From positions 1 to 64,000 of the forward strand of contig NZ_JAACYI010000019.1 of NCBI RefSeq assembly GCF_009996735.1: a stretch of 64,000 bases of DNA, given 5' to 3'. Shown in pieces: positions 1,699-56,725 of this stretch. Every line of letters starts with the position of its first letter. The first letter of the stretch is position 1. Below the pieces are notes generated by a model that saw nothing but the letters and a program-made list of their open reading frames with translations, ran no database searches and had not been told where the DNA came from. Both the position numbers and the translations under genes were made by a program. This stretch comes from Cellulomonas sp. APG4 (GTDB taxonomy: Bacteria; Actinomycetota; Actinomycetes; Actinomycetales; Cellulomonadaceae).

Positions 1699-1910
1699 CT
1701 GCCTTTGCGGCCTGCGGATTTCGACGCTGACACTCTGCTGTCGCTCGAGGCGCGGAGCGCGCGTGCGGGCGAGGGGAGCGCCCGATGGTGTCGGGCTGCC
1801 GTCGCCGTGGCCATGGTCGGACCTCTTCGCCATGGCACGAGCCGACCAGCACGATGGTGCCGGGTAGGTCTGACCTGGCCTCGATGAAGCCCTGGCCTAC
1901 GGAAACCAAG

Positions 1911-1953
1911 GGAGCGGGTGACGGGAATCGAACCCGCGCTGTCAGCTTGGGAA
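1911..1953. other. attL: left attachment repeat (3' part of tRNA-Gly)
   Basis: These 43 bases equal 56653-56695 exactly and carry the T-arm and acceptor-stem sequence of tRNA-Gly. After the repeat the sequence departs from the tRNA (an A where the tRNA has G), so no D-arm or 5' acceptor strand follows and this is not a tRNA gene. A 12-bp palindrome, AGAACCGGTTCT, lies just inside at 1960-1971 and could be part of the recombinase core or arm region. Confidence 0.85.
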
Positions 1954-1989
1954 ACTGACAGAACCGGTTCTAGCCACTCGCCGCGAGGC

Positions 1990-2398
1990 CATCGCTACAG
2001 GTCAGAGCCAGCACAGGTGCCAACTTGCGACAGCGAGCGACACCTCGTGACGTCTCGGTATGGAGCGTAATGGAGCGGCGCGCGGCAGCCAAGGACGACA
2101 CCGCCACGGCAGCGCTACTACGTCTGGTCAACGTTCTTCGGCCGGCCTGGAGCAGCGCGGACTCGGCCATCCCGAGCGGGCGGGCAACGTCACGAACGGT
2201 ACGCCCGGACTAGTCGATGCCACCCTCGTCGGTGCGCTCGCTCAACCAGCTCGGGCGCGCTACGGCGAGACTGCGGCAGAAAGGGCCTCGGCGTGCTTCA
2301 TCCTCTCGGGCAAGCGTAGCTGCAGACCTCATCAACGGTGTCCGTCGAAGCGGGTCGCGATCTCCAGCCAACCGCTATCAACGGGTGGCCGAGCACAC
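1990..2398. other. Non-coding stretch inside attL
   Basis: Apart from the arm-type 18-mer at 2059-2076 I see no gene here. The open frames that cross the region lack a ribosome binding site and recognisable protein sequence. It is most likely the regulatory and attachment region of the element's left end. Confidence 0.4.
2059..2076. repeat. Putative integrase arm site, left end
   Basis: The sequence TATGGAGCGTAATGGAGC lies about 105 bp inside attL. A near-identical 18-mer (TATGGAGCGTTATGGTGC, 16 of 18 bases equal) lies at 56559-56576, between the integrase start codon and attR. Short direct repeats near both ends of an element are typical arm-type binding sites for tyrosine integrases. That role is inferred from position only. 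Confidence 0.5.
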
Positions 2399-2833
2399 CT
2401 AGTTGGCGTCACTGACTAGGAATCTGCGCGACGTGAGCCGCTCAATCTGGCCGCTGGCGTGGAAGACCAGGCCAGCCATGAAGTCGACGATGCGCTTCGC
2501 GTCGGCATCGTCGAGAGCCTCGAGATTGACACCGACGGTCCCATGTTGGCGCAGCAGTTCGCCGATGGCTCGGGCGTCCTGGTACGACCTCACGTCGACC
2601 CAGGTGAGCCCTGATGTGCGAGCGGTCTGTGGCGCTGCGTCTTCAGTGCCGGCCTGCGCGACAGCCTGTTCGAACTCTGCGCTGGCTCCAAGAGCTTCGA
2701 GCCGCGTCATCCGGGTGAGCAGGGCGCTGATCCTCGCACGGAAGCCCACGGCGAGGGCGAGGACCGTCAACGGCCAGATGAACACCTTGATGTACTCGAG
2801 CACAACGAGCGGCGTCGACATGTCCGCGAACAT
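2399..2833 (-). CDS. Membrane-anchored SepF-domain protein
   Basis: The protein has 144 residues from the ATG at 2833; a TTG at 2860 would add nine. Residues ~9-31 form one hydrophobic membrane segment (VFIWPLTVLALAVGF). A helical linker follows (LTRMTRLEALGASAEFEQAV), and residues ~80-141 resemble the SepF fold: SYQDARAIGELLRQ, VNLEALDDADAKRIVDFMAG, then SGQIERLTSRRFLVS. SepF normally tethers FtsZ to the membrane at the division site through an N-terminal amphipathic helix; here a true membrane segment replaces that helix. The gene is divergent from the FRG-domain gene at 2972, with a ~140-bp shared promoter region. It could interfere with or sense cell division, perhaps as part of a defence or addiction pair; this role is inference. 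Confidence 0.65.
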   Translation of the reverse strand: MFADMSTPLVVLEYIKVFIWPLTVLALAVGFRARISALLTRMTRLEALGASAEFEQAVAQAGTEDAAPQTARTSGLTWVDVRSYQDARAIGELLRQHGTVGVNLEALDDADAKRIVDFMAGLVFHASGQIERLTSRRFLVSDAN

Positions 2834-2971
2834 ATCGGAGCCTGATGCCGCCAGCCCCAACTAGGGCCTACGTCCTGGAGGGTCAGGGGCCTCCTGCGGA
2901 AGGGCGGTTTCAGCAACAAGAGCCAGCATCCCGCTCGGGACATCGCGCCACTGGGCCCGGTACCTTCCGGT

Positions 2972-3949
2972 ATGGCCACACTGTCACCGGAGACGGCGCC
3001 CGCGACGTTCTTTGACCGCCTCGACGTGCGCCGCGCTCTAGGCATGACAAGCGTGGACGACCTCTGGGACTGGGCGGTCGGCGGCGGCTCTGCTGGCGGA
3101 CTGCCTGTGGGCGACAAGGTCGTGTACCGCGGGCAGTCCCACGCTGACTTTGGGCTGACCTCGTCCTTGTACCGGCTCTGTCGCAAGGCACTGCCGTCCG
3201 GAGTGGCGGAGAAGCGCTTGGCTGAGGTCGAGGCGAAGGTGCTCGCGGCCATGCGTAGTGAAGGGCTCGGCAGGCGTATGAGCGATGGACAGTTGCTCTC
3301 CGTGCTCCAGCATCACGGCGTTCCGACGCGGCTCATCGACTTCTCGCGCGGTCCTCTTGAAGCGCTCTACTTCGCCGTCGAAGGACGCGACGGCATCGAC
3401 GGTCGCATGTTCGTGGTTCGCGTGGACGGAAGGCCGACATCCGTTGCGACAGAGATGCCTTTCGAGTCGACTCACGGCGACCCCGCCCTGCCGTGGGCCT
3501 CGTATGCCCGGGGTAACACGCGCGCGCAGGATCCGTGGACGCAGACAGTCGCCCTCGTTGACCCGAAGGACCTCGATCCGCGAATGGTCGCTCAGCGCGG
3601 CGTCTTCCTCGTGGGCGGACTCAACCGGCGGTCCGCGGGGCGCAGCATGCGTTACGCGGCGGCCCCTGGAGGCCGAGCGGGGCGAGAACTCGCGCCAACG
3701 CTCTACGCCGACGTGACGTCCCTGGGCGTCAACTTCACGACGAGGATCTCCCGCCGGCCGCACGGCTCTTGGCCCGCGTCCGGATGGACCATCAAGATCG
3801 ATCACGCCTGGAAGCCAGAACTCCGTAGCCGCCTGGCTTCTCTGGGTGACTCCATCAGTAGAGACACCATGTACCCCCCGGTGGATGAGGTCGCGCGACT
3901 GGCGAACTACGCCGTCCTCGAGGACCTGGCCCAAGGCAGCCGACTGTAG
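2972..3949 (+). CDS. FRG-domain protein
   Basis: The protein has 325 residues with an FRG domain (named after its FxRG motif) at about residues 45-160. Visible signatures are VVYRGQSHADFGLTSSLYR (~50-68) and LQHHGVPTRLIDFSRGPLEA (~112-131), followed by LYFAVEG. FRG-domain proteins are common in phage-defence islands and prophages, but their reaction is unknown to me. The C-terminal ~160 residues carry no domain I recognise. The gene is divergently paired with the SepF-domain membrane protein, and the two may form a single system. The ATG start at 2972 follows a long gap without a strong ribosome binding site, so a slightly different start is possible. Confidence 0.75.
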   Translation: MATLSPETAPATFFDRLDVRRALGMTSVDDLWDWAVGGGSAGGLPVGDKVVYRGQSHADFGLTSSLYRLCRKALPSGVAEKRLAEVEAKVLAAMRSEGLGRRMSDGQLLSVLQHHGVPTRLIDFSRGPLEALYFAVEGRDGIDGRMFVVRVDGRPTSVATEMPFESTHGDPALPWASYARGNTRAQDPWTQTVALVDPKDLDPRMVAQRGVFLVGGLNRRSAGRSMRYAAAPGGRAGRELAPTLYADVTSLGVNFTTRISRRPHGSWPASGWTIKIDHAWKPELRSRLASLGDSISRDTMYPPVDEVARLANYAVLEDLAQGSRL

Positions 3950-4262
3950 GCACGGCAGCGCGTCATTGTGCCCGGCGGGCCGCCATCACCTCGGCGGGAT
4001 GGGCTCCTGTGCGCTCACCTGGCGACGGTCCGCACGCGACCATACGCGCGTGGCCGCACTCGTATGCGAGCGTCGACCAATCGACGCTCGCCGATGGGAA
4101 CTGCTTCGGCCACCGATGCGTCGAGGGCCGCGCGTTCCACTCGCCGAGGAGCATGCGACGCCGGTCGCGGAGGTTATCCCCAGGCTCGCGCGTGTGGCGC
4201 TCATGAATCCTCGGCATCGCTAACCTGCAACCTGGATCGGGACGAACCAGGGGGAAGCGGGA
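3950..4262. other. Intergenic stretch, nothing recognised
   Basis: About 310 bp separate the FRG gene from the toxin module. No RNA gene, strong hairpin or credible short gene stands out. The sequence just before 4263 (gggggaagcgggaATG) holds the ribosome binding site of the next gene. Confidence 0.4.
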
Positions 4263-4589
4263 ATGGGTACAGGGGGCGCGGTGGGGAGCGGTGAGGCTGT
4301 TGCGGACTTCGAGGAGATGCGCGCAGCGACGAGGCGGATGAACGACGCCGGGGACACCCTCGACGCCCAGCACCGGGTGCTGGACTCCCGTGGGTCCTAC
4401 CGGGCTGAGCTGCCACCGCACGTTGCGACGGTGCTGGACTCGTTCGCTGACCGGTGGGAGCACACCCTGACCCAGCTCGCCCAGGCGATGTGTGACACCG
4501 GGACGAACGTTGAGCAGTCCCGGGTCGCGTACGAGGACCGCGACGGGTTGGTGTGCTGGGACATGCGCACCCTGGACGGGCGGAACTGA
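4263..4589 (+). CDS. WXG100-like partner protein of a secreted toxin module
   Basis: This is a small helical protein of 108 residues with a helix-turn-helix-hairpin layout. It has a helix with FEEMRAATRRMNDAGDTLDA, then a second with VATVLDSFADRWEHTLTQLA, and an RW pair in place of a classical WxG turn. Such proteins pair with type VII secretion (Esx) substrates. It ends two bases before the GTG of the toxin gene, so the three genes 4263-6314 are almost certainly one operon. The secretion machinery is not in this window. Confidence 0.6.
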   Translation: MGTGGAVGSGEAVADFEEMRAATRRMNDAGDTLDAQHRVLDSRGSYRAELPPHVATVLDSFADRWEHTLTQLAQAMCDTGTNVEQSRVAYEDRDGLVCWDMRTLDGRN

Positions 4590-4591
4590 TC

Positions 4592-5956
4592 GTGGCGCCC
4601 CACCCCACGTACGGGGCCACCAGTCCCGCAGTGTTGCTTCACGCGGCTGACCCTGCCCTGGTGGACGACGACGCCGGTGACCTGCGCGGGCTCGCTGTGC
4701 GGCTCGAGTACGAGATCGCCCCGCTGCTGCGGACCGCGACGACACCCGCGTGGCAGGGCCTGGCCGGTGAACGGTACGAGCTCACCCGTGACGGGTTGTG
4801 GCGGGCCGCGTTGGGGGCCGCGGACGCGTTCAACGACGCCGCCGTCGTCTTGGAGACGTACGCGTCCGCGGTGCGCGCCGGGTACCAGCAGCTCGCGGCC
4901 GCGATGGAAGACCCGGCCGTGTGGTCGGACTCCACGGCCCGGCACGTGACCATCGACGGCATCCAGCACACCCTGGACCAGGCCGCTGAGGACCTGCGGG
5001 TGGGTCTCGGTGCGTGCTCGAACTTCCTGCCCTCCCCCACGAGCGGGATCTCCGAGGCGTTGCGTGGCGCTGGGGACTGGTGGGACGGGCTCGAGCTGTG
5101 GCAGCAGATCCTCGTCGGTGTGGCCGTCGCCGGGGCGACCGCCCTGTCCGGTGGGTCCCTCGGGGTGGCGATCGGCGTCGGTGGCGTGGCGTCCTATGGG
5201 CTTGAGCACGCCCACGGGCTCGCTGACCTCAACGACGACCCCGTCGCGGCCACCCAGTCGTACTTCGAGACGACCACACCTGCCGCGACCGCCCTACACG
5301 TGGGCGAAGCGGCGCTGACGTTCGGACCGGGAGCGTTCGGCGGAGCGGTCCTGGGGACGGGTGCACGGCACGGCATCTCCCAGGCCGTCAGGCACCCGCA
5401 CGTCTACGCCGGAGAGCTCAGCAACGCGATGGCAGCCGGTGACCGGGGTGCGGTCGACTTCTCCGCGTTCATGCGACGCGACCCGATCACCGCAGCCAAC
5501 GGGGACCTCATCACACCTCTTGACGCGGCCGCGCAGCCCGGAGCTGCAGCGCAGTACCTCGACCAGAAGGTCGTGCCACTGTCCGCCCGAGGTCAGGCCC
5601 TGGACTACCAGGTGGCCCAGTACGGCGAAGCGGAGCGGGCGATCTTCCTGCCGAACGGTCGAGAGGTCCGCCCGGACGGGTTCAACCCAACCTACGGGGC
5701 GGTGGGCGACGCGAAGTTCGTCCACGAGGGCCAGACGTCGTCGTTCTACATCCCGGAGACGATGTCGAGCCCCGGTATCCAGACGATCGCGGAGACCAAG
5801 ATGGACAACACCCTCACACGGTTGTCGCAGGCGTCGCTGGCTTCGGGTGGGGATGGGATCGTGGAGATGACGACGAACAACCCGAGGGCGGCCGCGTACA
5901 TGGAGGCGCGCATGAGCGCGTTGAACATCACCGGCTACGTACGGATCGTGGAGTGA
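4592..5956 (+). CDS. Polymorphic toxin with WXG-like N-terminus and nuclease-type C-terminus
   Basis: The GTG at 4592 gives 454 residues. The N-terminal ~170 residues are helical and Esx/WXG-like, as in type VII-exported toxins. A glycine/alanine-rich hydrophobic section follows (ILVGVAVAGATALSGGSLG), typical of such pre-toxin regions. The last ~120 residues carry REVRPDG and then GDAKF (D373 and K375), matching the D...D-x-K pattern of restriction-endonuclease-fold toxins. I infer a DNase or RNase toxin delivered to competitors. The next gene, two bases downstream, is the expected immunity gene. The nuclease assignment is from the motif and not certain. Confidence 0.65.
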   Translation: MAPHPTYGATSPAVLLHAADPALVDDDAGDLRGLAVRLEYEIAPLLRTATTPAWQGLAGERYELTRDGLWRAALGAADAFNDAAVVLETYASAVRAGYQQLAAAMEDPAVWSDSTARHVTIDGIQHTLDQAAEDLRVGLGACSNFLPSPTSGISEALRGAGDWWDGLELWQQILVGVAVAGATALSGGSLGVAIGVGGVASYGLEHAHGLADLNDDPVAATQSYFETTTPAATALHVGEAALTFGPGAFGGAVLGTGARHGISQAVRHPHVYAGELSNAMAAGDRGAVDFSAFMRRDPITAANGDLITPLDAAAQPGAAAQYLDQKVVPLSARGQALDYQVAQYGEAERAIFLPNGREVRPDGFNPTYGAVGDAKFVHEGQTSSFYIPETMSSPGIQTIAETKMDNTLTRLSQASLASGGDGIVEMTTNNPRAAAYMEARMSALNITGYVRIVE

Positions 5957-5957
5957 G

Positions 5958-6314
5958 ATGAGTGACGTTCTGATCGCCAGCACAGGGTCCTACCGGTTCG
6001 ACATCGACGCGCTCCAAGCCGCAGCATCGTCGCGGTGGCCGGGGATGCGCCGATTCGACGGCGCAGGCTCCGGGGACGGACAGTTGCAGCACGTCGGCGC
6101 CGACAACCGGCTCCTCGACGTCACGAGCCTGCGGGCCGGTCACGGCCTGGGCGTCGAAGGTGACCCTGAGCGGGTGGCCGAGTTCATGGCCTGGCTGACG
6201 ACCCAGCCCGGGTTCCCCTCAGACGGGAGCATCGAGGTCTACAACTGGGCGCTGGACATCATGCACCTGGCCCCTGGTGCGCAGGTAGGCGAGCTGTTGG
6301 CGTCGCTCCCCTAG
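5958..6314 (+). CDS. Candidate immunity protein for the upstream toxin
   Basis: This acidic protein of 118 residues begins at an ATG one base after the toxin stop codon, and the sequence GGAGTGAG before it serves as ribosome binding site. No family is recognised. Size, charge and position directly 3' of a polymorphic toxin are those of immunity proteins. It probably binds the nuclease domain of the 4592-5956 product in the cytoplasm. Confidence 0.6.
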   Translation: MSDVLIASTGSYRFDIDALQAAASSRWPGMRRFDGAGSGDGQLQHVGADNRLLDVTSLRAGHGLGVEGDPERVAEFMAWLTTQPGFPSDGSIEVYNWALDIMHLAPGAQVGELLASLP

Positions 6315-6352
6315 CCTCGCTTGTCTGGAGCGCCTGCTGGCACACTGTCGCT

Positions 6353-6532
6353 GTGCCGAATGAGAGCTCTCGAGCAGAGGCAACACGTCGTCGCCGCCAG
6401 GCTCTGCACCAGGAGGGCTTCAACGCGCCCTTGCCGACAGAGCGCGGAGCCCCGCCGGAACCGTCCACGGTGTCTCGCGACGTCGACCCCCGTCCGGCGC
6501 CTGGCCCGGCCACGCCGAGTCGCGACACCTAG
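6353..6532 (+). CDS. Possible short hypothetical protein (59 aa)
   Basis: A GTG-started frame of 59 codons encodes a very basic N-terminus (RAEATRRRRQALHQEG) and a proline-rich tail. No ribosome binding site is convincing. It fills an otherwise empty 350-bp gap and may not be expressed. Confidence 0.25.
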   Translation: MPNESSRAEATRRRRQALHQEGFNAPLPTERGAPPEPSTVSRDVDPRPAPGPATPSRDT

Positions 6533-6665
6533 CCCTTCGTCGCGCGCCGTCACCGGCCATCGTTCCTAGGGCTCCCAGCCCGCAGGCGGCAAGGGTCGAC
6601 TGTGGCGCAGCGACACGCGCCAAGCTTGACCTCGTGGGCGAACCGCACGGCGGCACACTGGGCGG

Positions 6666-7211
6666 ATGCGGCGGATCGCAGGCCAGAGACCGTACGGGGG
6701 CGACGATGGGCCGAGCGCCGCTGAGTTGCTCCTCGAGGAGACCCGTCGCGCCGAAGACCTCCAGGAAGGCGCCGGAACCGCGCTGGACCAGGTCGCTGGG
6801 ATCACGACCGGGTTCGCCGGTGTGGTCGTGAGTGTGCTCGCGGGTGGTGACGGGTGGCCGACGTTGATAGCCGCGGTGCTAGCTGCACTCTCGGCGGTGT
6901 GCGGGGTGCGCGCCATGGCGATCCGGACGACGGCGACGTTGCGCCCGGTCGCGCTCCTCGAGCGGTTCGAAGGGACGCCCAGGGCGGAGGCTGAGGTGGC
7001 GGTGCTCGCTACAGCTGCCCTCCTCCACGAGGACCGCGCCGAACGGCTGCGCAAGAAGCGCTGGTGGTTCAGCACCGCCGGCGGGCTGCTCGTGGGTGCT
7101 ATCGCGGTCCTGCTCCTAACGCTTACGCTGGATGCGGTCAACGCCGACCATGAGGCGACCGCTCCCACGGAGCAGATCGGTCCCACACCAGATGAGGAGG
7201 TGGACGGGTGA
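6666..7211 (+). CDS. Hypothetical membrane protein with three membrane segments
   Basis: The protein has 181 residues. A charged N-terminal helix (LLLEETRRAEDLQEGAG) leads into two close membrane segments (residues ~45-80), then a cytoplasmic segment with LERFEGTPRAEAEV, and a third membrane segment near residue 140-160 followed by an acidic tail. The arrangement of a short helix, a membrane hairpin and a helical domain recalls membrane effectors of nucleotide-signalling defence systems, but I cannot assign it to one. It overlaps the next gene by four bases (GTGA), so the two are translationally coupled. Confidence 0.5.
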   Translation: MRRIAGQRPYGGDDGPSAAELLLEETRRAEDLQEGAGTALDQVAGITTGFAGVVVSVLAGGDGWPTLIAAVLAALSAVCGVRAMAIRTTATLRPVALLERFEGTPRAEAEVAVLATAALLHEDRAERLRKKRWWFSTAGGLLVGAIAVLLLTLTLDAVNADHEATAPTEQIGPTPDEEVDG

Positions 7212-7519
7212 ACGGCAACGACACTGCGATCTCGTTCGCCGCGTCCCTCGCTGACCCGACGTTGGTGAGTTCGGCGGAGGGCGATCGTGACGACACCGAG
7301 CGCGTGCGCCGGTACCTCCTGGGCAAGGGTGCGGCGGAGGGCGATCGTGACGACACCGAGCGCGTGCGCCGGTACCTCCTGGGCAAGGGTGCGACGAAGG
7401 GCAGTGCTCGCGTCGTGCCCCGTGGTGCGAAGACCAGCCGGGGCGTGACGAAGAGCGCTGCCAGCGGCCGGTTCGTCAGCAAGGCGCGGTCGGCGCGGTC
7501 AAACCGCTCTAGCGACTGA
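7208..7519 (+). CDS. Basic protein with an in-frame tandem repeat
   Basis: The GTG-started product has 103 residues. Residues ~23-62 are two exact copies of a 20-residue unit (beginning AEGDRDDTERVRRYLLGKGA). The rest is rich in lysine, arginine and serine (KSAASGRFVSKARSARSNRS), so it may bind nucleic acid or the upstream membrane protein. A similar basic, serine-rich tail occurs in many small hypothetical proteins of actinobacterial plasmids. Function unknown. Confidence 0.5.
   Translation: MNGNDTAISFAASLADPTLVSSAEGDRDDTERVRRYLLGKGAAEGDRDDTERVRRYLLGKGATKGSARVVPRGAKTSRGVTKSAASGRFVSKARSARSNRSSD
7274..7393 (+). repeat. Perfect 60-bp tandem duplication in a coding region
   Basis: Bases 7274-7333 and 7334-7393 are identical. 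Sixty bases is twenty codons, so the frame is kept. The absence of any silent difference points to a recent duplication or active copy-number variation. Confidence 0.9.
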
Positions 7520-7610
7520 CCCGGTTCGCGATGGCACTTCGGATCGTGTCTACGGGGTGGCAACTCCGCTCCTGTCCACACGGCCGAGGACGGTCGCTTC
7601 CCCAAACCAC

Positions 7611-9494: not shown

Positions 9495-10420
9495 GGCGTG
9501 TCTCCTATGTCCGTAGCCAGGTGATGATGGCGGCGAGGACGACGGCGCCGCGGTAGGTCACGGCGTGCTTGTCGTAGCGGGTGGCCAGGCCGCGCCACTG
9601 CTTGAGCAGGCAGAAGGCGCGTTCGACGACGTTGCGGCCCTTGTACCGGTCGGGGTCGTAGGTGACCGGGCGGCCGCCGCGGGAGCCGCGGCGCTTGCGG
9701 TGGCCTTGCTGGTCGCGCGGTTCTGGGATGACCGAGACGATGCCGCGGCGGCGCGGATGGCGCGTGAGGAGTACGCCTTGTCCGCCAGCAGTGCGTCCGG
9801 TCGGGTCCGGGGGCGGCCTGGTCCCAGACGCGGGACGTGGATCATGTCCAGCACCGGCAAGCACATGGGGGCGTCACCGCCTTGACCAGGGCCGATGAGC
9901 ACCGCCAGGGGCCGACCCTTGCCGTCCACGGCGTGGTGGATCTTCGTGCTCAGCCCGCCGCGGGACCGCCCGATCGCATGGTCAGCCGGCTCGACGCGCA
10001 GATTCGTGTGATTCGGAAGGTCCCCCTGTGACCCGGGGCAGGGTGGTGGCGTGCTGGTGAGCCCGGTTGACGGTGGAGTCGATGCTCACTGCCCAGTCGA
10101 TGTCACCAGCGGCGTCGGCCTGGGCCAGCAACGCGGCGTGGATCTTGTCCCACGTGCCGTCCCGGCTGAACCGGGCGTGGCGCTTCCAGACCGTCTGCCA
10201 CGGCCCGAACCGTTCCGGCACGTCCCGCCACGCACACCCCGTGCGGAAGCGGAACACGATGCCCTCGACCACCTGCCGATGATCCCGATACGGCCGTGAA
10301 CGACCCCTGACCTGCGGCATCAACGGCGCGATCCGCGCCCACTGAACATCACTGAGCTCCTGCGTTCGATTCACCCGGCCAGCATCGCGCGCACATCCCG
10401 CTCATCTTGGGAGACACGCT
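9495..10420 (-). mobile_element. IS5-family (IS427-type) insertion sequence, degenerate
   Basis: The element is 926 bp with short inverted ends (GGCGTGTCTCC at the left, GGAGACACGCT at the right). CTAG is duplicated at 9491-9494 and 10421-10424 as target site. The transposase reads on the minus strand through three frames. It sits between the terminator of 8881-9438 and the end of the 10421-10975 gene, whose TAG stop lies in the duplicated target, so no gene is broken. Confidence 0.85.
9505..10374 (-). pseudogene. IS5/IS427 transposase, frameshifted
   Basis: The first part (start 10374) reads LSDVQWARIAPLMPQVRGR and ends in SIDSTVNRAHQHATTLP, with the first catalytic Asp in DST. The protein then continues in a second frame with RGGLSTKIHHAVDGKGRPLA, a shift of the kind IS427 elements use for programmed frameshifting. 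Near base 9765 it changes frame again, from LLADKAYSSRAIR to RRRGIVSVIPEPRDQQ; compared with the family a few codons are missing there. That second change is not programmed, so the transposase is probably inactive. Confidence 0.75.
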
Positions 10421-16354: not shown

Positions 16355-17137
16355 TCAGTCGGTCGGGGCCGCTGGTGGGCGCCCGAGGTCTCGGTTCTTG
16401 AGCCGGTAGGAGTCGCCCTTGAGGGCGATGACGTCGGCGTGGTGGACGAGGCGGTCGATCATCGCGGCGGCGACGGTGTCGTCGCCGAAGACCTCACCCC
16501 ACCGCCCGAACGGCTTGTTGCTGGTGACGATCAGGGAGGCGCGTTCGTAGCGTGCGGAGACGAGCTGGAAGAACAGGTTGGCGGCTTCGGGTTCGAAGGG
16601 GATGTAGCCGACCTCGTCGATGACCAGCAGCGGGTAGCGGCCCAGGCGGCGCAGCTCGTCTTGCAGGCGCCCGTCGTGGTGAGCGGTCGCGAGGCGGTCG
16701 ACCCACTCGGCGGCGGTCGCGAACAGGACCCGGTGACCGGCCTGGCAGGCGCGGATCGCGATGCCGGTTGCCAGGTGGGTCTTGCCGGTGCCGGGCGGGC
16801 CGATTAGGACGACGTTCTCCCGGCCGGTGATGAAGTCCAGGGTGCCCAGGTGGGCGATCTGCTCGCGGCGCAGGCCGCGGGCGTGGGTGTAGTCGAACTC
16901 CTCCAGGGACTTGCGGGCCGGGAAGCGGGCGGCGCGGATCCGGCCTTCGCCGCCGTGGGCCTCGCGGGCGGCGACCTCCCGTTGCAGGCAGGCGGCGAGG
17001 AACTCTTCGTGGGTCCAGGACTCGGTGCGGGCGCGGTCGGCGAGCCGGTCGACGGCCTCACGCATCGTGGGGGCCTTCAGCGCCCGGGTCAGGAACGCGA
17101 TCTCGGCGGTGACGTCCCGGGCCTTGGTCGTGGCCAT
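16355..17137 (-). CDS. istB: IS21 helper ATPase IstB
   Basis: The 260-residue product is a DnaC/AAA+-type ATPase. Walker A is GPPGTGKTHLATGIA and Walker B is YPLLVIDEVGYIPF; ASLIVTSNKPFGRWGEVF is the sensor region. IstB binds target DNA and guides IstA. The ATG at 17137 overlaps the stop of istA (ATGA), typical of IS21 operons. Confidence 0.92.
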   Translation of the reverse strand: MATTKARDVTAEIAFLTRALKAPTMREAVDRLADRARTESWTHEEFLAACLQREVAAREAHGGEGRIRAARFPARKSLEEFDYTHARGLRREQIAHLGTLDFITGRENVVLIGPPGTGKTHLATGIAIRACQAGHRVLFATAAEWVDRLATAHHDGRLQDELRRLGRYPLLVIDEVGYIPFEPEAANLFFQLVSARYERASLIVTSNKPFGRWGEVFGDDTVAAAMIDRLVHHADVIALKGDSYRLKNRDLGRPPAAPTD

Positions 17138-18360
17138 CAGGCGACCTCCTCCAGCCCGAACGCGGCGTCGTAGGTGCCCAGGTCCCGCTGCTCGACCTCA
17201 TCGGTCTGCGGGGCGGTCGGTCGTCGATGATGCGCGGCGGCCATCGCCAGTGCCGCGGCCCGGTGGGCGGGGTCGGTGATCGTCTGGTGGTTCGCCCAGC
17301 ACCGCTCGTGGCGTCCGACCAGGCGCCCGCCCCAGGTGATGGTGACCGTGGTCAGGTCCGCGATCACCTCGACCTTGCGGCCGACCGCGACAGGGTCCAC
17401 CGAGTAGTCGTTGGAGTCCAACCGGACGTAGTGGTCCCGCGGCAGCCGCGTGGTCACCCGCCAGCCCAGGGCCGGGGTCACCGGCGGCAACGGGACCATC
17501 GCCGCGGCGTCGGTGGCCCACCGGTCGGCCGGCTTGCAGCCCAGCGACCGGTGATGGCGACGGTTCGCCTTGACCAGCCACTCGGTCAGCTGGGTGTTGA
17601 AGTCCGCGACCGAGGTGAACGTGCGTCCGGGCATGAACGAGGTCTCGAAGTAGCCGTTGGTGCGCTCGACCAGGCCCTTGGCCTCGGGGTCCCGCGGCCG
17701 GCACTGGTGCACCCCGACCCCGAGGATGCCGCGGAAGACCTCGAACTCCTCGGCGAGCTTGGGTTTGCCGCCGCGCCAGGACCCGACCGCGCCCTCGTTG
17801 TCCCAGACCAGCTCGCGGGGGACCGCGCCCATCTGGGTCAGCAGCTCCCAGTGGCCCAGGATCAGGTCCGGTGCGTGCCTGGTGGGGATCATCACCGCGA
17901 ACAGCATCCGCGAGTAGCCCGCGCTCATCACCAGCACCGGCGGCGTCCCGACCTGCCCCGCCCCCAGCGGGATCTCCGCGGGCGGGAACCACAGGTCGCA
18001 CTGCGCCCGATGCCCCGGGTCATAGGTCGTGCGCGTGGCCGGGTCCGGCGGCAGGTAGTACGGGCGGATCTCCCGGACCCGGTCCTTCAGGAGCGTGATC
18101 GACCGGGTCCACCCGATCCGCTCAGCGATCACCGTCGCCGGCATGTCCGGGGTCTTGTGCAGCAGCTCGCGGATCGCCGGCTCCACCGCGTCGACGATCG
18201 AGCCCTTCGGCGCCCGGACGTACTTCGGCGGCACGTCACGGGCCAACGCCCGACGCACCGCGTTCCTCGAGACACCGAGCCGGCGAGCGATCGCCTTGAT
18301 CGCCATCCCCTCGACCCGGTGCAGCCTGCGGATCTCCGCCCAGTCCTCCACGGTCATCAC
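17137..18360 (-). CDS. istA: IS21 transposase IstA
   Basis: The 407-residue product starts with a helix-turn-helix (AIKAIARRLGVSRNAVRRAL) and continues with an rve-type DDE core: AQCDLWFPPAEIP holds the first Asp, RELVWDNEGAVGS the second, and DPEAKGLVERTNGYFETSF the Glu. The C-terminal part (SNDYSVDPVAVGRKVEVIAD) is the beta domain of the family. It carries out cut-and-paste or replicative transposition together with IstB. Confidence 0.92.
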   Translation of the reverse strand: MMTVEDWAEIRRLHRVEGMAIKAIARRLGVSRNAVRRALARDVPPKYVRAPKGSIVDAVEPAIRELLHKTPDMPATVIAERIGWTRSITLLKDRVREIRPYYLPPDPATRTTYDPGHRAQCDLWFPPAEIPLGAGQVGTPPVLVMSAGYSRMLFAVMIPTRHAPDLILGHWELLTQMGAVPRELVWDNEGAVGSWRGGKPKLAEEFEVFRGILGVGVHQCRPRDPEAKGLVERTNGYFETSFMPGRTFTSVADFNTQLTEWLVKANRRHHRSLGCKPADRWATDAAAMVPLPPVTPALGWRVTTRLPRDHYVRLDSNDYSVDPVAVGRKVEVIADLTTVTITWGGRLVGRHERCWANHQTITDPAHRAAALAMAAAHHRRPTAPQTDEVEQRDLGTYDAAFGLEEVA

Positions 18361-30663: not shown

Positions 30664-30900
30664 TCAGAGGAGCGCGGATGCGGCCATGATCGCCGCGGCG
30701 GTTGCCAGCAGGCCCCCGTAGACGGTGGCCGTGGTGAGCACGTACCGGTCGAACGCGGCGGCCTGCGCTTCGGTCGCGTCGGACGGCCACGCCTGGCCGT
30801 GGGTCACCCGGTGGGCGACCGACCGCCAGAACGGGGAGAGCCGGCGGGGCGCTCGAGGGGGCGTGGGGTTCTGGGTTGCTGCTCGGTGCTTGCTGCTCAT
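30664..30900 (-). CDS. Small membrane protein (78 aa)
   Basis: ATG 30900 overlaps the stop of the hydrolase gene (ATGA). A basic N-terminus (KHRAATQNPTPPRAPRRLSP) precedes one membrane segment at the very end (VYGGLLATAAAIMAASALL). It is the last gene of the transfer-like operon, perhaps a small subunit of that complex. Confidence 0.55.
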   Translation of the reverse strand: MSSKHRAATQNPTPPRAPRRLSPFWRSVAHRVTHGQAWPSDATEAQAAAFDRYVLTTATVYGGLLATAAAIMAASALL

Positions 30901-32264
30901 GGTGCTGCTGTTCCTTCCGTGCGGGTTGCTGCGGCTGGGGGCGTGGTGTTGTTCACCGTGGCGGTGGCGGTGAAGGTGGCGGCAACTGCGGGGGAGGTGG
31001 GGTTCCCCATGAACTCCCAGTGCCAGGGCTCGAGCGGGCCGAACCCACCGGCCTGCGCCCACGGGGGGTTCACCCACCCGTACTTGGGGCCGTGCTCCAT
31101 CATCCAGAGGTAGTTCGGCATGTTGTACTGGTTGACGCCACCGAAGTTCGCCAGGTCAAGGGCCATCCCCCACCCGTGGTTCGACGTCCCTGGGGTTGCT
31201 GCCAGGGGTCCCTTCGCTCGCTTCGTCGCGACCTGCGCCTCATAGGAGCGGTACGAGGACGTGATCGCGAGGTTCTTCCCGTGATCGGCCTTGTACTCGC
31301 GGTTCAGAGCGACGATCGCGTCCACCGCGTCACACCGGGCCAGGTGCTGCGGAGCCCAGGGGATCGCGCACATCGCCGCGAGGGGGATCTTGCCGTTGGA
31401 GTACCCGCCCCACGGCTGTGGCTTGCGGTACACCCCGTCCCACACGATGGGGGTGAAGTCGTCACCGAGGAGTTCGCACCCAGCCCCGTCATCAGGGGTG
31501 TGCCTGAGCGGGACGGTGCGGTCACCGTCGTCACCGAGCTCGGGGCGGTCCAGGTCAGGGTGCGGTGCCACCGCGGCCAGGTCGTCCCACAGGGTGTCCA
31601 CCGCGGCGCGGGCGAGTGTTTCCCACTTCGCGTATGCGTTCGGGTGCCCGGACCGCTGCACTGCCTGCGCGGCGACGGTCACCGCCGCGTCCTCCCACCC
31701 GTCGACGTCCACGAGGCCAGGGTTCGTCGTCGCCCCGTAGAGGAAGGCAGTCGTGGCGTATACGGGGTCGGTGATCTGCTCGGTCGTGCCCCATCCCATG
31801 CTCGGGCGCTGCTGAAACAGCCCAAGGGAGTCCCGGTCACCACCGTCGAGGTTCCGCAGGGATGACTCCTGCATCGCGGTCGCGATCGCCACGACGCCGG
31901 CCTGCCGCTGCACCGCGTCAGCGGCACCACCGGGCACGACCACGGACCCCTTCACCACGGCGAGGATCGTCACGGCGTGCCCGGACTGCTCGGACGTCAA
32001 CCCGTCCAGGGTGACGTCCGAGCCCCCTGGGGTAGGGGTGTCCCCGGCGAAACACGCGTCGTACTCATCCTGCTCGGCCTGTGCGACCGCGGCAGCTGTT
32101 TCGGCGGTGATCTGCGCGATCATCGCCGCGGCCGCGACCCCCGCGACCGGGGGACCCAGGACGAGGACCGCACACGCCCCACCGACCACCGCCCGCCCAC
32201 GTGGCGTGGACAGGATCTGCGCACCAACGCGCAGAGCGACCTTGCCGACAACAGCCCACGCCAC
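30897..32264 (-). CDS. Cell-wall hydrolase: lytic-transglycosylase-like and M15 peptidase domains
   Basis: GTG 32264 with GGGAGGG upstream gives 455 residues. A membrane segment lies at about 27-50 (AVVGGACAVLVLGPPVAGV). The first half has AIATAMQESSLRNL and SLGLFQQRPSMGWGT, a transglycosylase-like pattern with Glu in MQESS. The second half is a VanY/M15-type D-Ala-D-Ala peptidase: ITSSYRSYEAQ, GTSNHGWGMALDLANF (H, D) and PWHWEFMG (H) supply the zinc ligands. Such enzymes open peptidoglycan for conjugation machines. It sits directly after the TrbL-like gene, which supports that role. Confidence 0.8.
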   Translation of the reverse strand: MAWAVVGKVALRVGAQILSTPRGRAVVGGACAVLVLGPPVAGVAAAAMIAQITAETAAAVAQAEQDEYDACFAGDTPTPGGSDVTLDGLTSEQSGHAVTILAVVKGSVVVPGGAADAVQRQAGVVAIATAMQESSLRNLDGGDRDSLGLFQQRPSMGWGTTEQITDPVYATTAFLYGATTNPGLVDVDGWEDAAVTVAAQAVQRSGHPNAYAKWETLARAAVDTLWDDLAAVAPHPDLDRPELGDDGDRTVPLRHTPDDGAGCELLGDDFTPIVWDGVYRKPQPWGGYSNGKIPLAAMCAIPWAPQHLARCDAVDAIVALNREYKADHGKNLAITSSYRSYEAQVATKRAKGPLAATPGTSNHGWGMALDLANFGGVNQYNMPNYLWMMEHGPKYGWVNPPWAQAGGFGPLEPWHWEFMGNPTSPAVAATFTATATVNNTTPPAAATRTEGTAAP

Positions 32265-55192: not shown

Positions 55193-56545
55193 CTACTCGC
55201 GGTCGAGCATGGCCAGTTCTTCCCGCACGAGAACGTCCATCCTCTCGGCCACCCGACGATCAGCGTCGTCGTAGAGGTGCAGGTATCTCGACGCCGCGGC
55301 GCTAGTTGAGTGCCCAGCCCTCGCCTGCAACTCCTTCATGCCGGCGCCCACCCGTGCCGCGAGGCTCTGACCGGTGTGGCGCAGGTCGTGCCACGTAAGG
55401 TCCGGGCGCCCGGCCTTCGCGCGCGCACGGTCGAACGCTTTACCGATTCGGTCCGGGTAGACCAGCCCGCCGCTCGCGGTCGTGAAGACCAGTGACGTGG
55501 GGGGACTACCCGTGTACGTCGCCAGGTGCACCTCGAGAGGCTCTGCGGCGATGTCCGGCACCGTGACGGTGCGCAGCGACGCCGTCGCTTTCACCTCGCC
55601 GAAGTCTGAAGCGCTTGCCTCGAGTTCCAGCGCTCGCGCGACTCGGAGCTTCCGCGTCGCGGGGTTGTAGTCCGTCCGGGAGAGGGCGAAGAGCTCACCG
55701 GAGCGAAGCGAAGTCATTGCCGCGAGCCACACCGCGGCGCGGTACCGAGCCGGCATCGCCTCGGCAATGATGCGGATCTCCGTAATGGTCGCTGGCTCAG
55801 GCTCGAGGTATGCGACCTGGCCGGCGCCCTTGATGCGCGCGGGGTTTGCCGTGATCCGGCCATCGTCGACGGCGCGCTCCAGGATCGCGTGCAGGAGGCG
55901 GTACGCCTGGGCAACCTCTGTCGCGCCCGCAGTGGGCTTTGGAGGCACCGCGAGACGCGCCAGCCCGCCGGTGGCTTCCCACTCGATCCTCACGGCCACG
56001 GGGATGCGTCCGGTTGGCGCTAGGGCATCGCCCCGCGCTGCCGCCCACTCTCGAATGGCCGCGTTGACGCGCCTGGGCGCCAGCACAGCGCGCTCATGGC
56101 GGGCTACGGCGCGCCGACGCGACTCTTCTCGGACTGCGGTGTGCCAGAGTCGGACGTCGTCAGCGGTGACGGCAGCGAGGGGCCGGGCGCCGAGATCGAC
56201 CGGGTGCTGCGTTTGCCCGACGGTCGCGTAGTGCCGGGGAGCGATCCACGTGTCAAGAAGACGGGTCTGCAGTGCGCGGGAACGGTCGCGGTACCGGTTG
56301 GTGGCGATGTACCTCGCGCCGTACTCGGCGACCGTTACCTGTCCACGGGCGGGGTCGACGTAGGCGCCCCCGACGATGGCCGCGCGTTCGACTGCGAGGG
56401 CGTCTTCGGCTGCGCGCTTGGTCGAGAAGGTCCCGAGGGAGCGGTGCTGTCCGCCGGAGTGGGGGATCGGGACTCGCGCGGACCACCGTCCCGAGCGCTC
56501 CTGCCGGATAGTCCCGAAGCCCCTGCGGCCCCGCTTGTTCGCCAC
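55193..56545 (-). CDS. int: Site-specific tyrosine integrase
   Basis: The 450-residue product has the typical layout: an N-terminal arm-binding domain with RRGFGTIRQERSGRWSARVP and SLGTFSTKRAAEDALAVERA, a core-binding domain, and a catalytic domain. Catalytic residues are seen in AMTSLRSGELFAL (Arg), LTWHDLRHTGQSLAA (His, Arg), RAGHSTSAAAS (His) and RYLHLYD (Tyr). The gene starts 107 bp from the tRNA-Gly attachment site, with an 18-bp arm-type repeat between. It integrates the element into the tRNA 3' end. Confidence 0.93.
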   Translation of the reverse strand: MANKRGRRGFGTIRQERSGRWSARVPIPHSGGQHRSLGTFSTKRAAEDALAVERAAIVGGAYVDPARGQVTVAEYGARYIATNRYRDRSRALQTRLLDTWIAPRHYATVGQTQHPVDLGARPLAAVTADDVRLWHTAVREESRRRAVARHERAVLAPRRVNAAIREWAAARGDALAPTGRIPVAVRIEWEATGGLARLAVPPKPTAGATEVAQAYRLLHAILERAVDDGRITANPARIKGAGQVAYLEPEPATITEIRIIAEAMPARYRAAVWLAAMTSLRSGELFALSRTDYNPATRKLRVARALELEASASDFGEVKATASLRTVTVPDIAAEPLEVHLATYTGSPPTSLVFTTASGGLVYPDRIGKAFDRARAKAGRPDLTWHDLRHTGQSLAARVGAGMKELQARAGHSTSAAASRYLHLYDDADRRVAERMDVLVREELAMLDRE

Positions 56546-56652: not shown

Positions 56653-56695
56653 GGAGCGGGTGACGGGAATCGAACCCGCGCTGTCAGCTTGGGAA
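56653..56695. other. attR: right attachment repeat within tRNA-Gly
   Basis: Identical to 1911-1953. It covers the 3' end of the tRNA gene from the acceptor stem through the T-arm to the anticodon loop region. The strand exchange must take place within these 43 bp. Confidence 0.85.
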
Positions 56696-56725
56696 GCTGA
56701 AGTTCTACCATTGAACTACACCCGC
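56655..56725 (-). tRNA. tRNA-Gly (anticodon CCC)
   Basis: The minus strand folds as a tRNA of 71 bases: acceptor GCGGGTG pairs with CACCCGC, D-arm GTTC...GAAC, anticodon stem TCAGC/GCTGA with loop TTCCCAA, T-loop TTCGATT. The three central bases CCC read GGG (glycine). CCA is not encoded (CCG follows the discriminator T). The gene is intact although it is the integration target, because the element restores its 3' end. Confidence 0.93.

Follow-up and report, generated by a model that had tools for sequence, protein, structure and literature searches.

An unusual SepF variant with a predicted membrane anchor beside an FRG-domain defense-candidate gene on an integrated element of Cellulomonas sp. 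APG4

The window, i.e. the whole analyzed stretch of 64,000 nucleotides of Cellulomonas sp. APG4 DNA, contains an element of 54.8 kb that is integrated in a tRNA-Gly gene and bounded by a 48-bp direct repeat, the two copies of which are identical at 47 of the 48 positions (Table 1). Given these att repeats and the integrase beside the second copy, the two genes of main concern here, encoding a SepF-domain protein and an FRG-domain protein in divergent orientation, lie near the end of the element that is far from the integrase. The stop codon of the SepF gene is some 440 bp inward from the left repeat, in agreement with the cargo position next to an att repeat that the initial annotation had assigned to the pair. 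An ORF for a DnaB-type helicase is also found between the att repeats. When the region 1900-7600 was used in a distant DNA search of plasmids, fragments of the FRG gene were found in three records and short matches to the tRNA/att end in six.

Table 1. Features of the SepF/FRG locus and of the surrounding element, in positions of the window.
Feature	Position	Strand	Basis and remarks
att repeat at the integrase-distal end	1911..1958	+	47/48 identical to 56653-56700; ARAGORN tRNA-Gly 1911-1981, 71 nt
SepF-domain protein gene, membrane-anchored (predicted)	2399..2860	-	153 aa; Pfam PF04472, codon-position GC, AlphaFold model compared with SepF crystal structures
SepF core	2411..2599	-	Residues 88-150, with R141 and F147 at the FtsZ-tail contact positions; alignments and published contact residues
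Predicted transmembrane segment of the SepF protein	2741..2809	-	About residues 18-40; hydropathy maximum and model helix
Intergenic region of the divergent SepF/FRG genes	2861..2971	.	111 bp
FRG-domain protein gene, single-gene defense candidate	2972..3949	+	325 aa; Pfam PF08867; PADLOC PDC-S15 models
Phage-type integrase of the element	55193..56545	-	Pfam PF00589, E 4.9e-12
att repeat inside tRNA-Gly(CCC) 56653-56725 (-), 73 nt	56653..56700	+	ARAGORN; repeat comparison

The remainder of the element showed a mixed content. Directly after the FRG gene, the stretch 4263-6314 (+) begins with an ORF that resembles WXG100 proteins (Pfam E 1.5e-5, slightly short of the cut-off). The next ORF combines a sub-cut-off hint of a T7SS signal with a Tox-REase-2 domain (E 4.1e-10), and the small ORF behind it, for which Pfam gave no match, could encode the corresponding immunity protein. 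Within another small ORF, at 7208-7519 (+), about 20 residues are duplicated in tandem (EGDRDDTERVRRYLLGKGA). IS-transposase-like ORFs, one split and one an IS21-like pair as judged by eye, are situated at 9505-10374 (-) and 16355-18360 (-), and a VanY-type carboxypeptidase domain (Pfam E 2e-12) was identified in an ORF at 30897-32264 (-).

The frame of the SepF-domain protein, hereafter called anchored SepF, starts with TTG, but the true start may be one of the ATG codons at residues 10 and 14. Its GC fractions at the three codon positions (0.67/0.47/0.79) follow the pattern of a real gene, and are gene-like in both halves; those of the plus-strand ORF that overlaps it (2403-2864) are 0.47/0.67/0.79. 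Hydropathy peaks at 1.97 in a 19-residue stretch from residue 18, and a single transmembrane segment is therefore likely. The N-terminal amphipathic membrane-binding helix is absent and this transmembrane-type segment is found there instead, so that both the hydropathy and a comparison with the start of the genome's own SepF bear out the earlier proposal that a hydrophobic membrane segment replaces the helix. Four arginines on the C-terminal side of the segment (R41, R43, R50 and R53) suggest that the SepF core faces the cytoplasm. In the AlphaFold model, a helix at residues 16-69 spans the linker and is followed by the core. The linker had been described as coiled, which is plausible from the model, although confidence is low in the second half of the helix. 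No NCBIfam or PADLOC model matched the protein.

The SepF core itself was recognized by profile, by sequence and by fold. Pfam SepF (PF04472) matched with E 5.4e-17 and a score of 62.2 bits (cut-off 27), and a sequence search among solved structures gave seven distinct sequences at E 1.3e-6 or better, six of them named SepF and one an uncharacterized C. glutamicum protein (3p04). The AlphaFold models were built from the single sequence; the best had a mean pLDDT of 71 overall and averaged 80-89 per block within residues 91-150, while the second of the five reached 69.9 and the remaining three 40-47. Modeling the C-terminal domain against SepF structures, a check proposed together with the initial annotation, gave 6scs_A as the best PDB match (rmsd 1.0 Å over 65 columns, TM-score on target 0.89, prob 1.00), and ranks 1-22 of this fold search were all SepF, archaeal SepF-like or 3p04 chains. 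A false match to SepF is thus ruled out by the profile, the solved-structure sequence search and the fold search together, and the assignment of a genuine SepF core with the SepF fold, as modeled, holds.

To what extent the core resembles SepF at individual positions was seen in an alignment with ten comparison SepF domains; family genomes contributed six of these, plasmid records three and an unannotated phage record one. Invariant columns numbered 29, and anchored SepF keeps 18 of these and has the remaining 11 altered. The kept columns include those of R141 and F147, at which R and F are invariant in all ten comparison sequences. The same two residues align with a K and an F of C. glutamicum SepF, taken as K125 and F131, a numbering inferred from the K-to-F spacing. 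For C. glutamicum SepF with K125E/F131A, binding to the FtsZ tail is reported as undetectable (PMC7118173). With 11 of the 29 invariant columns altered, FtsZ binding by anchored SepF may therefore be changed or lost.

The host's own SepF is encoded on another contig (C22), about 1.4 kb from ftsZ, and has the usual short start; the host FtsZ ends in ...DDLDLPDFLKNP. Anchored SepF shares the core fold and the contact positions, K/R and F, with this copy and with canonical actinobacterial SepF (C. glutamicum, PDB 6scs/6sat). Unlike these, it has a transmembrane-type segment and a helical linker where canonical SepF has an amphipathic N-terminal helix and an acidic linker, its C-terminus follows directly behind the core, and its gene lies outside the division cluster and away from ftsZ, on the element in contig C10. 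In actinobacteria, where most other FtsZ regulators are missing, it is SepF that tethers FtsZ to the membrane (PMC7118173), and an excess of SepF in B. subtilis blocks the recruitment of late division proteins (PMC5717166). In C. glutamicum, the non-binding mutant forms multiple rings, but normal SepF overexpressed about 30-fold did not have this effect (PMC7118173); division in such hosts is thus not necessarily impaired by additional SepF.

Additional SepF-domain copies were found in other genomes as well. Two or more SepF matches occurred in 30 of 197 genomes of the class (by our count, the present genome included). As an additional copy beside the division copy, anchored SepF resembles the SepF paralogs of actinobacteria, which are named SflA and SflB in Streptomyces. 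We inspected 17 of the 22 SepF matches in eight chosen genomes out of the 29 other multi-SepF genomes, and these included all 14 additional copies, three of which score below the Pfam cut-off. In contrast to anchored SepF, none of the 14 has a comparable hydrophobic segment just before the SepF match. One genome (G271) had as many as six SepF-domain matches, several of them short and divergent, which appears to be a SepF-like expansion (L140, L146, L148, L149 and L150).

Further anchored SepFs were sought in genomes, plasmids, phages and viral contigs. A scan of the family with the SepF protein gave matches in 199 out of 200 genomes and, among the matches listed, none but the window's own copy starts before residue 41. 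When only the first 77 residues were used, matches were obtained in 5 of 394 class genomes, 3 of 396 order genomes and 3 of 200 family genomes (overlapping samples, each with the present genome counted). Narrow patterns run against genome contigs yielded four loci, one of which was already known. Two more weak anchor places (L062 and L067) were judged by eye. One genome (G174) was reported with a second match in the family scan, and its anchor locus has no SepF domain. The related anchors elsewhere are joined to other C-terminal parts, and the SepF HMM matched none of the 10 related anchored proteins scanned. A candidate SepF-like C-terminus at L043 (= L068) was rejected, as Pfam gave nothing up to E 10, BLASTP aligned the anchor half only and the SepF HMM did not match; this protein adjoins a capsid-like ORF, as seen by eye.

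SepF searches returned eight plasmid records and seven phage records. Four of the former were examined, and two of them (L033 and L039) are canonical SepFs beside division genes, while L038 is a stretch without annotated genes and L034 has an anchor match only. None of the phage records was annotated; the one examined supplied a SepF for the ten comparison sequences above. Narrow patterns run against viral contigs gave 40, 42 and 3 matches, and none was confirmed as related to anchored SepF, to the SepF core alignment or to FRG. Scanning viral contigs, genome samples and genome contigs thus gave no second anchored SepF; as these searches were sampled, relatives may exist elsewhere. Neither an anchored SepF nor a SepF-FRG system was described among the best-ranked literature matches, in a coverage that largely excludes subscription journals.

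Finding the combination a single time across these scans, with 11 of the SepF-invariant positions altered, is what would be expected if anchored SepF were a chance fusion or a captured SepF core that has no selected function and is decaying. The frame is nevertheless open and gene-like in codon-position GC in both halves, and both FtsZ-contact positions are kept, and we consider such decay unlikely. The other C-terminal parts found behind related anchors could instead point to a shared anchor with exchangeable C-terminal domains, in which anchored SepF acts as a stand-alone sensor or toxin and the SepF domain addresses the division site. An R-x4-H motif, resembling that of HEPN nucleases, was spotted by eye in four of the anchored proteins (L034, L042, L063 and L065), which would fit with this, as would a locus in Arthrobacter sp. 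cf158 (L066:1996-6657), where an anchored protein lies near CD-NTase-, E2- and SLATT-like ORFs, also recognized by eye. On the other hand, anchored SepF lacks any further domain that could serve as an effector, and Pfam gave no HEPN family above the cut-off in nine anchored proteins, the only hint being a sub-cut-off DUF4145 match in L034 (E 0.014). A stand-alone sensor or toxin appears to us rather doubtful, if less so than decay.

The neighboring FRG gene is of a more ordinary kind. Pfam FRG (PF08867) matched residues 49-139 with E 3.2e-18 and 66.9 bits against a cut-off of 25, and 14 PADLOC models, all named PDC-S15, matched the ORF, the best with E 2.3e-26. The protein has the FRG domain, a conserved R53-G54 and a QHHGVPTRL-type motif in common with known FRG/PDC-S15 proteins and does not differ from them in any notable way; its nearest homologs found are 59% identical and belong to the same family. 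The search of solved structures gave no relative by sequence, and the single-sequence structure model had a mean pLDDT of 37. The initial annotation had described FRG proteins as being of unknown activity, which is incomplete, since Frg has been placed in the ADP-ribosyltransferase (ART) superfamily and might be an NADase in immunity (PMC9503650). The FRG protein would then be a likely ADP-ribosyltransferase-type defense effector that works on its own.

The initial annotation had further proposed that SepF and FRG act together in defense. In such a joint system, the membrane-bound SepF would monitor or capture the divisome, and a phage attack on FtsZ would lead to release or activation of the FRG enzyme. 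The two genes are indeed adjacent and divergent in a cargo position, and the FRG models are listed in PADLOC under PDC-S15, albeit as a candidate only. Their divergent spacing could mean shared control; no match to a sigma-70-like promoter was found within 2300-4300. If the pair acted together, the two families would be expected to recur side by side, and FRG relatives are available for such a comparison in 15 of 200 genomes of the family and in at least 20 of 394 of the class (the present genome counted), the latter with at most five candidates scored per genome. We scanned all 34 other whole-genome FRG places, with about 5 kb on either side or less at contig ends, as well as three of the four plasmid FRG matches with 6 kb (the fourth has the match statistics of the third). 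The FRG HMM recovered 28 of the 34 genome places, the other six being weak. Neither a SepF domain nor a related anchor was found within these distances of about 5-6 kb at any of the 37 loci, which are partial samples.

Furthermore, the two closest FRG relatives (59% identity) share a different divergent ORF of 209-235 aa without Pfam match, and the three plasmid FRG homologs examined have varied neighbors. The divergent ORF of the closest relatives (L089:4989-6829 and L090:4995-6923) contains a RHQAVH stretch, and an ORF that looks integrase-like by eye lies nearby in L089. One of the 10 other anchor loci scanned, in Microbacterium oxydans (L065:4602-8763), encodes an anchored protein without SepF and, on the opposite strand at a distance of about 1.1 kb and with other ORFs between them, an FRG protein (Pfam E 2.4e-17); this could be counted in favor of a joint system. 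An ORF beside these two genes looks integrase-like by eye. Even though the samples are partial, the lack of co-occurrence elsewhere weakens the pair model, and we regard a joint system as improbable. On present evidence, no support was found for a two-gene SepF-FRG system, and FRG needs no SepF partner.

Immunity that senses FtsZ does exist, as the complex of T7 Gp0.4 with FtsZ triggers CapRel(Ebc) (PMC13423816), which would also suit the joint system. Because FtsZ is sensed in this way, an FtsZ binder carried on an element is a reasonable candidate for defense tests, and a defense link of anchored SepF is, by analogy, conceivable. The membrane-tethered SepF core could then be an FtsZ bait, serving as a guard or decoy against FtsZ-attacking phages, either alone or together with FRG. 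We hold such a bait to be a distant prospect; if it did exist, an anchor shared with exchangeable domains would have been combined with a divisome-binding domain.

What lies at this locus is an unusual SepF variant beside an ordinary defense-candidate gene. The explanation that we tentatively prefer, though with somewhat less than even confidence, is that the element encodes a membrane-tethered binder of the FtsZ tail which perturbs host division independently of FRG. Anchored SepF would cross the membrane once and bind the C-terminal tail of the host FtsZ through its cytoplasmic core, and this binder would be tethered permanently to the membrane, as opposed to the reversible hold provided by an amphipathic helix. 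It would most likely compete or mix with the host SepF, so that septation is delayed or altered, while the adjacent FRG gene would be a separate cargo gene, likely for an ADP-ribosyltransferase-type defense effector. A partial parallel is found in DicB, a cryptic-prophage product that affects cell division and phage susceptibility (PMC6832061) and works with MinC. Both are mobile-element products, DicB with an effect on division and anchored SepF with a putative one, but where DicB takes the MinC route, anchored SepF would reuse the SepF core.

If the preferred explanation is true, mobile elements would have a direct route to the host division machinery in actinobacteria. An element with its own, permanently membrane-bound SepF would test the importance of reversible membrane binding by SepF. 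Lastly, the membrane anchor that is joined to different domains could be followed as a family.
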